Positions 20,756 to 26,144 of a DNA stretch of 64,000 bases are shown one piece after another. This DNA is from Roseomonas gilardii. GTDB lineage: Bacteria; Pseudomonadota; Alphaproteobacteria; Acetobacterales; Acetobacteraceae. Below the pieces are notes generated by a model, which was not told where the DNA came from, searched no databases, and was given only the letters and a program-made list of their open reading frames with translations. Position numbers and translations under genes: made by a program. Position 1 is the stretch's first letter, and each line of letters starts with the position of its first letter. The DNA lies in NCBI RefSeq assembly GCF_001941945.1, contig NZ_CP015583.1:3676001-3740000 (forward strand), given 5' to 3'.

Positions 20756-22291
20756 TCAGGCGTCCACCCCGTCGCTGCTGCTGTTGCCGCCCATCAGCCC
20801 CCGGCGCCGGGCCCAGGCGCCGTAGAGGCGCGGGCCGAGCAGGGCGAAAGCGGCGATGACCAGCAGCGCCAGCGAGATCGGGCGGGTGAGGAAGACGGTC
20901 CAGTCGCCCTGGCTGATGGTCAGCGCCTGGCGCATCGCCTGTTCCGCCATGGGCCCCAGGATCATGCCGATGACCACGGGCGCGGTGGGGAAGTCGAAGC
21001 GGCGCATGAACATGCCGATCGTGCCGATCACGTAGAGCAGGATCAGGTCGGTCACGCTGTTGCTGATGCCGTAGGTACCGATGGTGGCGAAGACCAGGAT
21101 GCCGGCATAGAGCTGCGGCGTCGGGATGGTGAGGATGCGCGCCCAGAGCCCGACCAGCGGCAGGTTCAGCACCACCAGCATGACGTTCGCGATGTAGAGC
21201 GAGGCGATCAGCGTCCAGACCAGTTCGGGCTGCGAGGTGAAGAGCAGCGGCCCGGGCTGGATGCCGTAGGACTGGAAGGCGTTGAGCATGATGGCGGCCG
21301 TGGCCGAGGTCGGCAGGCCGAGGGTGAGCATGGGCACCAGGATGCCGGCGGCCGCGGCGTTGTTGGCGGCCTCCGGCCCGGCCACGCCCTCGATCGCGCC
21401 GGTGGTGCCGAACTCCTTCTCGTATTCCGGCTTCACCATCCGGCGCTCGGCGTAATAGCTCAGCATGGTCGGCATCTCGGTGCCGCCCGCCGGCATGACG
21501 CCGAAGGGAAAGCCCAGCGCCGATCCGCGGATCCAGGGCCAGAAGGAGCGCCGCCAGTCGGTGCGGCTCATCCACAGGCGGCCGACGGGGCGGACGATCT
21601 GGTTCCCCTCCACATGCCGCCAGGCGAGGTAGAGCGTCTCCCCCACCGCGAAGAGGGCTACGGCGACGAGCACCACGTCGATACCGTCCAGCAGGTCGAT
21701 CATGCCGAAGGTCATGCGCGGCTGGCCGGTCTGCAGGTCCACGCCGACGAGGCCCAGCATCAGCCCGAAGGCGAGCGAGGTGAGGCCGCGCAGCGCCGAG
21801 CCGCCGAGGACGGCGGAGACGGTGACGAAGCAGAGCACCATCAGGCAGAAATACTCGGCCGGGCCGAGCTTCAGCGCCAGTTCCACCAGGATCGGGCCGA
21901 GGAAGGAGATGCCCAGCGTGCCCACCGTGCCGGCGATGAAGGAGCCGACCGCCGCCGTCACCAGCGCCGGGCCGGCGCGGCCGTTGCGGGCCATCTTGGC
22001 GCCTTCCAGCGCGGTGATGATGGAGCCGCTCTCGCCCGGCGTGTTCAGCAGGATGGAGGTGGTGGAGCCGCCATACATCGCGCCGTAGAAGACGCCGCAG
22101 AACAGGATGAAGGCGCCGGTGGCCGAGACCTTGAAGGTGATCGGCAGCAGCAGCGCGATGGTGAGCGCCGGGCCGATGCCCGGCAGCACGCCGACCGCGG
22201 TGCCGAGGAAGCAGCCGAGCAGCGCCCAGCCGAGATTGGCCGGCGACAGCGCGTTGCCGAAGCCGAGCGAGAGGCCCGAGAGCGTGTCCAT
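20756..22291 (-). CDS. tctA: Tripartite tricarboxylate transporter, large permease TctA
   Basis: A 511-residue membrane protein with about 12 helices, matching TctA in length. Family marks include [20 protein letters not shown] near the start, [14 protein letters not shown], and [25 protein letters not shown] (around residues 85-110). It forms the channel of a sodium- or proton-driven, binding-protein-dependent importer of carboxylates. It is last in the tctC-tctB-tctA operon, starting four bases after tctB. Confidence 0.95.
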
Positions 22292-22295
22292 GGCG

Positions 22296-22775
22296 TCAGA
22301 GGATCCCTTCCAGCACGCCCGCGCCGATGTTCACGCCGAGGAGGTGGCTGAAGGCGAGGTAGGCGAGCAGCGTGACCACGGCGCCGATCAGCAGGTCGCG
22401 CAACGGGTGGCGCGAGCCGAAGGCGGCGCAGACCAGGACGTAGAGGATGGTGGAGGCGATGACGAAGCCGAGCCATTCGATCAGCGCGACCTGCACCACC
22501 AGGGCGGCTGCCAGCAGGCCCAGCGATCGCCAGTTGACCGGCGGCGGGTCCTGCATGTCCTCCAGCCCGTGGCTCCAGCCGCCGCGCAGGGCGGAGGCGC
22601 AGAGGCCGATCCCCAGGGCGAGGAGCAGCACCGCCACCAGCCAGGGGACCAGCGTGGCGCTGACCTCCGCATAGACGGGGGTGGGGGGGATGACGAGGGC
22701 CTGCCAGACCGTCAGCAGGCCCAGCCCCACCACCCCGAGCCCGACCAGGAGGTCGGACCGGGAGGCTTGGTTCAT
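22296..22775 (-). CDS. tctB: Tripartite tricarboxylate transporter, small permease TctB
   Basis: A 159-residue protein with four predicted helices, the usual TctB build. Its ATG overlaps the tctC stop in an ATGA junction, so translation is coupled. It pairs with TctA in the inner membrane. Confidence 0.93.
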
Positions 22776-23755
22776 GCCGCGAGCCCGAGATCCTTGAGGA
22801 CGGATTCGGTGGTCTTCGTGTCCTCCGCCAGGAAGGTCTCGAAGGCCTTGCCGGCGAGGAAGTCGTCGTCCCAGCCCCGCGTCTCCAGCAGCTGCTTCCA
22901 GGCCGGCAGGCCGTGCAGGGCGGTGACGAAGCGGATCAGTGCCTCCTGTCCGTCGGGCTTCAGCCCCGGCGGGCCGAAGACGCCGCGCCAGTTGGTGGCC
23001 ACCACGTCGAGGCCGCTCTCCTTCAGCGTGGGCACGTCGGGAACGACGCGCTTCTCGCCGGAGGTGGCGAGCGCGCGCAGGCGGCCGGCCTTCACCTGCT
23101 CGGAGAACTCGGCCCAGCCGGAGATGCCGGCCTTGACCTGGCCGCCCAGGATCGCGGCCATGGCCGGGCCGCCGCCGGCGAAGGCGACGAAGTTGGCGTC
23201 CCTGGCCGAACGGCCCATGGTCTTGATGAGCTGGCCCAGCACGATGTGGTCGGTGCCGCCGGCGCTGCCGCCCGCCACCGGCACGGCGCGCGGGTCGGCC
23301 TTCAGCGCGGCGGCGAACTGGCCGACATCCTTGTAGGCGCTGTCGGCGGGCACCACGATGGCGGCGGCCTCGGCGGTCAGCCGGGCGATCGGGGCCACGT
23401 CCTTGAGGCTGTAGGGCGATTTGTTGCTGATCGCCGCGCCGACCATGATGCTGCCGCCGACCAGCAGGCTGTCCGGCTTGTTGCGGCGCTGGGAAATGAA
23501 GCGGGGCAGGCCGACCATGCCACCGGCGCCGCCGACATTCTCGAACTGGAAGGTTTCCACCAGCCCGCCCTCGCGTGCCACCTGCTCGATGGCGCGGCCG
23601 AGGCCGTCCCAGCCGCCGCCGGGATTGGCGGGGACGAACATGTGCAGGCTGCGGAAGAGCGGCGCCGCCAGGGCGTGGCGGGGCAGGCCGGCGAGCAGTG
23701 CGGCCCCCGCGGCGGGTGCCAGCAGGGAGGAAAGCAGGAGGCTGCGACGGAGCAC
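22772..23755 (-). CDS. tctC: Tripartite tricarboxylate transporter substrate-binding protein TctC (Bug family)
   Basis: A 327-residue periplasmic binding protein. The signal peptide (LRRSLLLSSLLAPAAGAALL...ALAA) is followed by the Bug-family core: MFVPANPGGGWDGLGRAIEQ near 45 and FENVGGAGGMVGLPRF near 80. No ATG precedes the signal peptide, so I take the GTG at 23755 (VLRRSLL), with AGGGA nine bases upstream. The much longer open frame reaching 25825 is an artefact running antisense through the next genes. Ligand is probably a di- or tricarboxylate; the Bug fold does not reveal which. Confidence 0.92.
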   Translation of the reverse strand: MLRRSLLLSSLLAPAAGAALLAGLPRHALAAPLFRSLHMFVPANPGGGWDGLGRAIEQVAREGGLVETFQFENVGGAGGMVGLPRFISQRRNKPDSLLVGGSIMVGAAISNKSPYSLKDVAPIARLTAEAAAIVVPADSAYKDVGQFAAALKADPRAVPVAGGSAGGTDHIVLGQLIKTMGRSARDANFVAFAGGGPAMAAILGGQVKAGISGWAEFSEQVKAGRLRALATSGEKRVVPDVPTLKESGLDVVATNWRGVFGPPGLKPDGQEALIRFVTALHGLPAWKQLLETRGWDDDFLAGKAFETFLAEDTKTTESVLKDLGLAA

Positions 23756-23773
23756 GATGACGTTCCCTATTGT

Positions 23774-23901: not shown

Positions 23902-25182
23902 ATGCGGGCATGCGTACCGGGGGCGGCGGGCCTTCTGGCCCTCTCCCTGCTGGCCGGCATCGCAGCCTTCCTGCCCGCCGTTCCGGGGGCATGGGCCGCG
24001 ACGCCACCGCGCCAGCCGCAGGCCCCGGCCCGCACGGCGGAGCGCGAGGCGGTGGTGCAGAACGCCACCGACATGCCGCTGCGGGAACTGTACCTGCGGC
24101 CGGAGGGCGCCGCGGAACGGGGGGCGGACCGGCTGGGCAACGAGATGCTCGGCCCGGATGCCAGCACGCGGCTGCGGCTGGGCCGGGGGCGGGAATGCGT
24201 CTTCGACGTGACGGCGGTCTTCGCCGACGATTCGGAGGAGAAGCGGGCGCGGCAGGATCTGTGCCGCAATCCGCGTCTGGTCTTCGGCGACCCGGCGGTG
24301 CCGAAGCGGTCGCTACTGATCGAAAATCGGTCCGGTCAGGCGCTGCGTGAACTCTACGCCCTGCCCGCTGGCCGGCTGCGCGACCAGAACGGCACCCCGA
24401 ACAACACCCCGAACAACACCCCGAACTGGGGGGTGGACCGGCTGGGCGAGGAGCCCGTGGGGGACGGGGAGACCTTCCGCCTGACGCTGCGCGTGCCCGA
24501 CTGCCGCGTGGACCTGCGGGCCGTTTACGAAGATGACGAGGCGGAGGAGAAGCGCGGGGTGGATGCCTGCGCGGTGCGGAACCTGGTCTTCGATGGCAGC
24601 GGCGTGCCGCACCCGCCGGACATCCCGCTGAGCTTCCTGAACCGGCATGACGCGCCGATCGCGGAGCTCTACGTCTCCGGCACCGACAAGGACGAATGGG
24701 GGCCGGACCGGCTGGAAACGCCGCTGGAGCGCGGCAGCCGGCGGCGCCTCGACATCCCGGTGGACTGCACCGCCGACATGCGCATCGTCTTCCCCAACGG
24801 CGCGGCGGAGGAGCGGCGGGAGGTGGATCTCTGCGCCGAGACGCTGATCGTCCTCCGCCCCGGCTGGACCGTGGCCGCGCGGCTGGATGCCGGGCTGGCG
24901 GAACCGCCGCCGCCACGCCCGGGCAGCCTGCGCCTGCGCAACGCCGCGCGGGTGCCGGTGGTGCAGCTCTACGTGGATGCGGGCCGGAAGGAAGGCGGGG
25001 GACCGGAGCGGGGGCCGGACCGGCTGGGCCGCAACGTGCTGGGGGTGGGCGAGACGCTGGATCTGGCGCCCCCGGAACCCGGCGCCTGCGGCGCGCGCCT
25101 GCTCGCCGTGCTGCGGGACGGGACCGAGATCCACCACGATTCCGTCGATCTGTGCTCCGGCCAGGAACTCGCCCTGCGATGA
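23902..25182 (+). CDS. Exported protein with four cysteine-paired repeats, unknown function
   Basis: A 426-residue protein with a signal peptide (residues 1-32, ending ...GAWAA). Four repeats of about 80-90 residues follow (about 50-130, 137-231, 241-320, 341-426). Each has an ELY/QLY strand, a GPDRLG-like turn and two cysteines exactly 22 residues apart (C99/C121, C201/C223, C289/C311, C396/C418), ending DLC or DAC. Each pair probably forms a disulfide within its repeat. Single-repeat proteins of this type occur in other alphaproteobacteria as hypothetical exported proteins; I know of no function. It overlaps the next gene by 4 bp (ATGA), so the two are coupled. Confidence 0.75.
   Translation: MRACVPGAAGLLALSLLAGIAAFLPAVPGAWAATPPRQPQAPARTAEREAVVQNATDMPLRELYLRPEGAAERGADRLGNEMLGPDASTRLRLGRGRECVFDVTAVFADDSEEKRARQDLCRNPRLVFGDPAVPKRSLLIENRSGQALRELYALPAGRLRDQNGTPNNTPNNTPNWGVDRLGEEPVGDGETFRLTLRVPDCRVDLRAVYEDDEAEEKRGVDACAVRNLVFDGSGVPHPPDIPLSFLNRHDAPIAELYVSGTDKDEWGPDRLETPLERGSRRRLDIPVDCTADMRIVFPNGAAEERREVDLCAETLIVLRPGWTVAARLDAGLAEPPPPRPGSLRLRNAARVPVVQLYVDAGRKEGGGPERGPDRLGRNVLGVGETLDLAPPEPGACGARLLAVLRDGTEIHHDSVDLCSGQELALR
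24394..24426 (+). repeat. In-frame 12-bp tandem repeat
   Basis: The unit ACCCCGAACAAC occurs twice in full plus nine bases of a third copy, encoding TPNN-TPNN-TPN inside the second repeat of the exported protein (residues 165-175). Copy-number change would add or remove four residues without a frameshift. Confidence 0.85.
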
Positions 25183-26144
25183 AGCCCCCTTCCCCGCGAT
25201 CCGGCTCCCTGCGGTCCGGCCCCGCTCTTTCCGGCTGGTTGGCGGCCCTGGCTTTGCCCGTGCTGCTGCTGGCCGCCATGCCTGTCGCCGCCCAGACGCC
25301 GCACGCCATCCCCGTGACGCTGCGCGGCAACTGGTTCGCCGGTTCCTGCGAGGCACCGGAGGCGATGCTGGCGCTGACCGCCCGCTCCGCTGCGCGGATC
25401 GGCAAGGGCTCCTCGCGGCTCGACCGCTTCACCGCCTTGCGTGACATCCCCGGCTGGCTGCTCGGCACCTCCGAAGGGGTGGAGGCCCCGCGCCTGTTGC
25501 TGCGGGCGCGCGATGCGGGGCTGGAAACGGCGGAGCCCGAGGCCAAGACCCTGGATGCGGGCCTGCCCGGCGATGTCCCGGTGACCGCCTGGCGCCGCTG
25601 CGATCCGCCGCCCCTGGCCTGGATGCTGCGGCATGGCGAAGGGGCGGCCGTGCTGGGCGCGGTGGAGCGGATGGAGGCGGGCTGCGTGCCCGGCACCACC
25701 GCCCTGGCCTGCGCGGAGGCGGTGGTCGCGGCGGCGGACGTGTCGGGCGACCGGCTGCTCGGCCCGGCCGAGATCGCCCGCATCGCACGTGGCCTGGGCT
25801 GGATGATCGCCGTGCGGGCGGGCACGGCGGGGGATGACGACCTGATTTCCGTGGGCGGACCGCTGCTGGGCGGGCTGGCCGCCGCCCGGGTGATGCTGGG
25901 CAGCCTGGATTACGATGGCGACGGCAGGCTTTCGGCCCGGGAACTGGCGCAGGACCGGGGAACCCTCTCCCCCTCGCCCGCCGCCGGGGCAGGCCCTGGT
26001 GTCCTGCCCGGCGCTGCGGCGGGGTCCCCCGCAGGCTCCCCCGCCTTGGGCGCGGCTGCGGGCCGGCCGCTGAAGCTGGACGGGCTGGAACAGGGGGCGG
26101 GGCTGTTGCGGGATCTGCTGGACGGGCTGTTGGGCGGGGGGTAG
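25179..26144 (+). CDS. Exported protein with two EF-hand-like calcium loops
   Basis: A 321-residue protein with a signal peptide (residues 1-39, ending ...MPVAAQ). Two 12-residue EF-hand loops are visible: DVSGDRLLGPAE (187-198, atypical) and DYDGDGRLSARE (244-255, canonical Dx[DS]xDGxxxxxE). The segments between contain cysteines 57, 141, 169 and 178. The last 60 residues are Gly/Pro/Ala rich and end in a short helix with GGG. I do not recognise the family. Its ATG overlaps the stop of the four-repeat protein, so the two are probably made together and may act as a pair outside the membrane. Confidence 0.72.
   Translation: MKPPSPRSGSLRSGPALSGWLAALALPVLLLAAMPVAAQTPHAIPVTLRGNWFAGSCEAPEAMLALTARSAARIGKGSSRLDRFTALRDIPGWLLGTSEGVEAPRLLLRARDAGLETAEPEAKTLDAGLPGDVPVTAWRRCDPPPLAWMLRHGEGAAVLGAVERMEAGCVPGTTALACAEAVVAAADVSGDRLLGPAEIARIARGLGWMIAVRAGTAGDDDLISVGGPLLGGLAAARVMLGSLDYDGDGRLSARELAQDRGTLSPSPAAGAGPGVLPGAAAGSPAGSPALGAAAGRPLKLDGLEQGAGLLRDLLDGLLGGG

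Follow-up and report, generated by a model that had tools for sequence, protein, structure and literature searches.

Two overlapping genes of Roseomonas gilardii, whose predicted products are referred to here as P1 and P2, were analyzed in a 64,000-nucleotide stretch of the genome (NCBI RefSeq assembly GCF_001941945.1, contig NZ_CP015583.1, positions 3,676,001 to 3,740,000 of the forward strand; hereafter, the window). Comparison with related genomes showed, at the level of sequence, that the two genes are passed on together, the stop codon of the first overlapping the start codon of the second. Sequence, family and predicted fold all gave good support to an EF-hand lobe in P2, and calcium binding by this protein is probable. 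The reading that we favor, tentatively and at somewhat less than even chances, is that P1 and P2 form a calcium-binding adaptor complex of two subunits in the cell envelope.

The P1 gene (23902..25182, forward strand) starts with an ATG at 23902, ends with a TGA at 25180-25182 and encodes 426 amino acids, comprising a leader and four predicted beta-sandwich modules, each with a Cys pair. The P2 gene (25179..26144, forward strand) starts with an ATG at 25179, inside the P1 stop, ends with a stop codon at 26142-26144 and encodes 321 amino acids, with a leader, a small beta-barrel, an EF-hand lobe, a low-confidence linker and a C-terminal helix. The resulting ATGA junction (25179..25182, forward strand) would allow translational coupling. 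The outer coordinates (23902-26144) and the junction had been given in an earlier note on this DNA and agreed with the sequence. Both proteins open with a hydrophobic, Sec-like leader, as judged by eye, and are probably exported.

An overlap of stop and start codons is a common feature of bacterial operons, and the weight of this observation therefore rests on its conservation and not on its presence. The closest named relative found was Roseomonas mucosa ATCC BAA-692, with identities of 91% for P2 and 94% for P1. P2 was present in 20 of 60 relatives (counting the genome of the window), with a long P1 match adjoining it in every case, and the ATGA overlap was kept in all 19 of the relatives' neighborhoods, excluding the window. 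A scan of named genomes with three patterns, one of them derived from EF-hand loop 2, yielded 57 loci with P2. P1 lay directly upstream in 53 of these, and the other four were unreadable at the P1 site (in three, the sequence starts at a contig end; in one, the site falls in an unread stretch). The stop and start overlapped in all 53 readable loci, by 4 bp (ATGA) in 52 and by 1 bp (TGATG) in the other. In a third set of 17 loci, which reached further, a 4-base overlap was detected in 13, the nearest P2 start was 14 to 17 bp past the P1 stop in three, and one (L177) was without an in-frame overlap. The three sets were not independent and the counts are not additive; exact 60-mers are common to named loci and 16 of the 19 neighborhoods, and the third set repeats three named loci (L184, L185 and L187) among its 17.

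A family-wide search of 299 genomes, including that of the window, detected a P2 match in 56 and a match to the P1 profile, in many cases partial, in 160. Adjacency was determined by comparing the listed positions by hand and by reading 20 stretches. P1 was adjacent in 49 of the 56 P2-matching genomes; four were broken at a contig end (G324, G301, G319 and G196), one (G229) had a marginal match, and the other two are weighed below. The earlier note had proposed a survey of gene neighborhoods, with rare co-occurrence of the homologs counting against a two-part system, and the two genes were instead found side by side in the large majority of cases. Among the neighborhoods compared, no other neighbor as widespread beside P2 as P1 was found. 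The dependence is one-way, because P1-type arrays are also found in genomes that lack a P2 match, whereas P2 was seldom present in these searches without an adjoining P1.

The P2 alignment comprised the window and 51 of the 57 named loci (52 rows); outside it were the locus with the 1-bp overlap (L085), one with a short P2 frame (L111) and four in which no P1 was read (L093, L116, L127 and L128). EF-hand loop 1 (25737..25772, forward strand; residues 187-198, DVSGDRLLGPAE) reads D187-V-S189-G-D191-R-L-L-G-P-A-E198. The earlier note had described this loop as degenerate, a description at odds with the retention of positions 1, 3, 5 and 12 in 51, 47, 52 and 52 of the 52 rows, respectively, with Ser at position 3. 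In the P2 of the window, the Ser at position 3 and the Arg at position 6 may weaken this loop. Loop 2 (25908..25943, forward strand; residues 244-255, DYDGDGRLSARE) was canonical, as the note had stated, and its ligand positions 1, 3, 5 and 12 were kept in 52, 52, 51 and 52 rows. Positions 1, 5 and 12 of loop 1 were also retained in all 17 loci of the third set. As the ligand losses in that set fell in loop 2, loop 1 is the better kept of the two loops at a distance.

Scans of the window P2 with Pfam and NCBIfam detected weak EF-hand matches alone, with EF-hand_5 of Pfam scoring 14.7 bits against a cut-off of 25.9. Across the family, EF-hand_5 matched 51 of the 52 members at E ≤ 0.1 (best E, 1.4e-8) and the Pfam EF-hand pair model matched 49 at the same threshold. 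P2 by itself had two weak matches to the sequences of solved structures; the P2 profile retrieved mainly EF-hand proteins among the 60 of 117 matches listed, with a best E of 0.0016. Predicted models were made of whole P1 and whole P2. The P2 model had a mean predicted local distance difference test (pLDDT) value of 79.6 and a predicted template modeling (pTM) score of 0.74, and residues 146-258 formed helices and two loops, followed by a poorly predicted linker. This helical part aligned with the EF-hand lobes of KChIP, NCS-1, calcineurin B and calmodulin, mostly over 70 to 90 residues and with Z scores of 8 to 10, a range (below ~13) in which the tool warns that helical folds may share mere arrangement; identification of the EF hand therefore leans on sequence too. 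The NCBIfam model for the XopAW EF-hand effector matched 28 of the 52 members at E ≤ 0.01 (best E, 3.2e-5) and was rejected as an identity for P2 because the match was limited to the EF hand; the window P2 scored 14.6 bits over 22 residues there, against a cut-off of 120 bits.

Ahead of the two-site lobe, P2 is predicted to carry a small lipocalin-like barrel (25320..25601, forward strand; residues 48-141). Eight strands were present in the model at residues 50-139, and four cysteines of P2, including Cys57 and Cys141, were invariant in the 52 rows, together with Gly50, Trp52 and Arg140. An N-terminal GxW and a late Arg constitute the lipocalin barrel motif. The strands aligned in the model with pallilysin (Tp0751, 5jk2) at a Z score of 8.2 and a root mean square deviation (rmsd) of 3.4 over 95 residues; the likeness to such lipocalin-type barrels extended to the eight strands, the GxW and the late Arg, and classical lipocalin barrels are longer than that of P2. 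A Foldseek search with the P2 model returned nothing at E ≤ 0.001 (best E, 0.024); its list was filled by the EF-hand part, and the barrel matched pallilysin at an E of ~0.04. The lipocalin family was absent from the Pfam matches of the 52 members. The predicted C-terminal helix (26076..26135, forward strand; residues 300-319) is amphipathic and may act as an internal plug for the EF-hand groove. In 46 of the 52 members, the amphipathic moment of the last 24 residues reached or exceeded the 90th percentile of their shuffles.

The predicted model of P1 (mean pLDDT, 85.0; pTM, 0.61) was a chain of four beta-sandwich modules, all encoded on the forward strand: Ra (24043..24291; residues 48-130, Cys99-Cys121), Rb (24301..24597; residues 134-232, Cys201-Cys223), Rc (24616..24861; residues 239-320, Cys289-Cys311) and the C-terminal Rd (24922..25179; residues 341-426, Cys396-Cys418). 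The cysteine repeat to which the earlier note had drawn attention was real. The two cysteines of each module are separated by 22 residues in numbering, and all four pairs were invariant in 54 aligned P1 rows, as were Asn54, Asn142, Asn247 and Asn347, each of which is the last residue of the first strand of its module in the model. Five Cys pairs were present in 42 of the 54 rows and four, as in the window, in 12. P1 had no Pfam match at E 10 and no NCBIfam family, and neither P1 nor its profile detected anything credible among the sequences of solved structures.

Rd had 13 invariant positions compared to 6, 7 and 11 in the other modules, and it is a conjectural docking site for P2. Its association with P2 was examined by scoring 15 of 16 partnered loci (the P1 fragment of L177 was too short) and 12 hand-picked P1-like loci without P2 from 11 genomes. 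Rd ended all 15 of the partnered P1 proteins scored. Three of these repeat rows of the Rd model and scored 110.7 to 126.3 bits, and the 12 outside those rows scored 74.5 to 125.6 bits. Eight of the 12 P1-like proteins without P2 scored 14.0 to 32.2 bits at the Rd position. A further P1-like frame of 408 amino acids (L201), outside this scoring and in a genome without a P2 match, ends after the linker. Distances between loci were also compared for 28 loci with all four of the P1, P2, tctA and tctC genes (the last two encode parts of a neighboring transporter), and the P1-P2 correlation was 0.87, with a partial r of 0.44 after tctA and tctC that was reached in 0 of 2,000 permutations.

Under the adaptor reading, both proteins would be exported by Sec and would form their disulfides, which are probable, in the periplasm, and overlapping translation would set the P1:P2 ratio. 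P2 would then dock on Rd. Calcium in the EF-hand loops would open the lobe, freeing a groove otherwise filled by the amphipathic C-terminal helix of P2, and the opened lobe would grip either a client or P1 itself. The client, for which a protein, a glycan or a small barrel ligand are candidates, would be bound by the remaining P1 modules, which are variable in number. The pairing of the genes, their overlap and the EF-hand sequence are firm, and the docking on Rd, the helix plug and the calcium-switched grip on a client are conjecture.

Several observations weighed against this reading, in addition to the low range of the EF-hand Z scores. Use of a loop 2 pattern in the named-genome scan favors loci that keep loop 2. 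The two remaining P2-matching genomes (G095 and G170; loci L181 and L182) contain distant P2 relatives, and the stretches read there had no P1; in addition, the P2 frame of one named Belnapia locus (L111) stops at 184 amino acids, before loop 1 is complete. Within the third set, the last acidic ligand of loop 2 (position 12) is replaced by Gln or Ala in two distant homologs of one genus (L174 and L178), and position 5 is Ser in seven other loci. Four of the 12 P1-like proteins without P2 still have an Rd-type module, two scoring 97.5 to 100.5 bits and two scoring 67.9 to 69.3 bits, and the association of Rd with P2 may reflect descent. As there is almost no gap, or even some overlap, between the partnered and unpartnered scores, and as the rows are related, docking was suggested rather than proven. 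Partial correlations of tctC with P1 (0.28) and P2 (0.37) were not zero, so that position or rate contributes to the P1-P2 value. The permutations also take no account of relatedness, and the support from this correlation is weak. Calcium in the periplasm can reach high levels, and hence the sites might always be filled. As separate observations, L174 and L178 keep loop 1 despite the loss in loop 2, and the distant relatives in L181 and L182 have EF-hand loops and, by eye, also the GxW start and the C-terminal helix.

It is possible, if doubtful, that calcium is permanently bound and simply stabilizes P2, with the pair forming a static envelope scaffold. Periplasmic calcium is said to mirror or exceed the outside level (PMC9132961), which is consistent with such an arrangement. 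A repeat array with invariant Cys pairs would also suit a rod-like structural protein. The resemblance of the predicted lobe to sensor lobes and the amphipathic C-terminal helix of P2, which some sensors also have, point away from a scaffold, although both are still compatible with a structural role. An unlikely explanation is that no complex is formed and that the two genes share one message because both proteins are needed under the same condition. Gene overlap is common in bacteria and P1-type proteins occur alone in other genomes, but shared need accounts poorly for the association with Rd and for the finding that, in many genera, P2 depends on P1 but not the reverse. Binding of a metal other than calcium, for instance a lanthanide, by the EF-hand lobe is in our view the least probable of all. 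Lanthanide-binding EF-hand proteins are known in alphaproteobacteria; in the 52 rows of P2, however, position 2 was Val, Ile, Ala or Leu in loop 1 and Tyr or Phe in loop 2 and was never the Pro of lanmodulin.

The genes for a tripartite tricarboxylate transporter lie divergent to the pair, on the reverse strand: tctC, encoding the binding protein (22772..23767), tctB (22296..22775) and tctA (20756..22291). The pair could thus be an accessory of this transporter, for example in calcium-citrate handling for TctC, which we regard as very improbable. A close tctC match was present upstream in 17 of the 19 neighborhoods, and 31 of the 53 named loci with P1 had a close tctC (at least 56%); the remaining 22 include some with too little upstream sequence to judge. 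Linkage was confined to part of the family. Loci of Belnapia, Neoroseomonas, Crenalkalicoccus and Paeniroseomonas, in which no close tct genes were found, nevertheless had P1 and (except for L111) a full P2 frame, and since such loci retain the pair, the idea of a system dependent on tct was rejected as the main interpretation. In the place of tct, Belnapia arida (L104) has upstream genes for an ATP-binding cassette transporter (an SBP_bac_3 binding protein and a BPD_transp_1 permease); in Neoroseomonas marina (L114), the pair is preceded by an OmpA-family protein and followed by one of YjbF type. This variation of the neighbors where tct is absent suggested that the P1-P2 pair is its own unit. 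Several Falsiroseomonas loci had tctC at a distance of 1.5 to 2.1 kb from P1, and in some of them a permease gene separates the two. Two further observations concerned this region. A DNA block around GCGCCGTGGC, between tctC and P1, was common to 11 (L056 to L066) of 18 aligned rows, and two loci (L058 and L059) had a common open frame of ~1.4 kb between tctC and tctBA.

The nearest counterparts with which the adaptor reading can be compared are two exported EF-hand proteins. According to the available parts of the accounts, EfhP of Pseudomonas aeruginosa (PA4107) is predicted to be periplasmic, has two canonical loops, binds Ca2+ at 13.7 μM and then exhibits a rise in exposed hydrophobicity (PMC9132961), and CaBP of Caulobacter is periplasmic with three EF-hand motifs (PMC13171946); no P1-like partner was described in those parts. 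P2 resembles both in its EF hands and, as judged by eye, its leader and differs in its predicted lipocalin-like barrel, two Cys pairs, C-terminal helix and tied partner gene. Neuronal calcium sensors, calcineurin B and calmodulin, with which the predicted lobe aligned, are cytoplasmic eukaryotic proteins with four EF-hand motifs, compared to two in P2, and the likeness proposed is one of fold rather than of close kinship. On the best reading, P2 belongs with the exported EF-hand proteins of bacteria and has a partner built of an unnamed module.

For P1, the known modules compared were the VAB domains of Vps13, which share with it tandem beta-sandwich modules, predicted in the case of P1, and an invariant Asn ending the first strand; an Asn at this position is not unique to VAB. 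A Foldseek search with the P1 model had VAB (7u8t) as its first match (E, 2.8e-7; probability, 1.00), but with a template modeling score (TM-score) of 0.16 and an rmsd of 19.2, and VAB did not stand clear, since a streptococcal T-antigen followed closely (E, 3.7e-7). Alignment with VIA-align gave VAB a Z score of 5.9 (rmsd, 15.4), below the 8.1 of the PepT2 extracellular domain (5a9h; 83 residues), which had a beta-sandwich likeness to P1. The VAB profile PF25036 had no match in the genome of the window at E 10, and the control genomes were silent too. The P1 modules differ from VAB in having Cys pairs and, in the model, six strands (of at least 3 residues) each. Published accounts describe nine strands and the invariant Asn for VAB modules (PMC8978259) and a calmodulin partner of VPS13C bound at the end of the protein opposite VAB (PMC13430412). 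Identification of P1 as a VAB domain was rejected on the difference in strand number, the poor superposition of the whole array and the equal scoring of the T-antigen, and kinship is unlikely. A broader proposal is correspondingly one to which we give little credence, namely that P1 is the equivalent in bacteria of the adaptor array formed by the VAB domains of Vps13, with an end module that would bind the EF-hand partner with a calcium-dependent grip, that the pair would act as a periplasmic calcium-gated adaptor recruiting envelope clients, and that the module would be a general binding module of Pseudomonadota that also aims trypsin-like peptidases.

The P1-type module was not confined to the pair. 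Long P1-type arrays without P2 were examined at 12 loci, in none of which did the P2 profile find a match. Among 299 genomes sampled from the phylum, the module was present in 35, mostly in open frames of less than 200 amino acids. In the genome of the window itself (G000, contig C1), one such module is joined to Trypsin_2 (L130; match at 4154870-4155196; E, 4.6e-26), and a two-module relative of P1 (L129; match at 2419092-2419691) had no Pfam match at E 0.1. Fusion to Trypsin_2 was also detected by Pfam in two other genomes (L137 and L202), and five modules are joined to a trypsin-like peptidase in both L202 and L203 (the Pfam scan covered L202 alone). These fusions suggest a binding role for the module. 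No Pfam match above the cut-off was detected for the module in the proteins scanned, and the same was true of NCBIfam, with which P1 alone was scanned. The earlier note had postulated a two-part, calcium-responsive system; the pairing was upheld by the gene neighborhoods and an EF-hand lobe by sequence, family and predicted fold, whereas the module, which occurs more widely in short proteins and peptidase fusions, is not specific to the pair. Separately, downstream of two three-module P1-like genes (L195 and L199) there are frames whose products, as judged by eye, resemble each other and have a hydrophobic stretch; they are possibly another array partner.

No paper on the P1-P2 pair was found in the collection of open papers searched, from which many journals are absent. 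To our knowledge, it is mostly unclear which targets bacterial EF-hand proteins act on. Here, the genome itself suggests the target of such a protein, through a conserved partner gene, a variable chain of modules and an end module that was constant in the partnered proteins scored. An unnamed Cys-pair module was thereby brought to light, and what a bacterial EF-hand protein switches becomes testable with two purified proteins.

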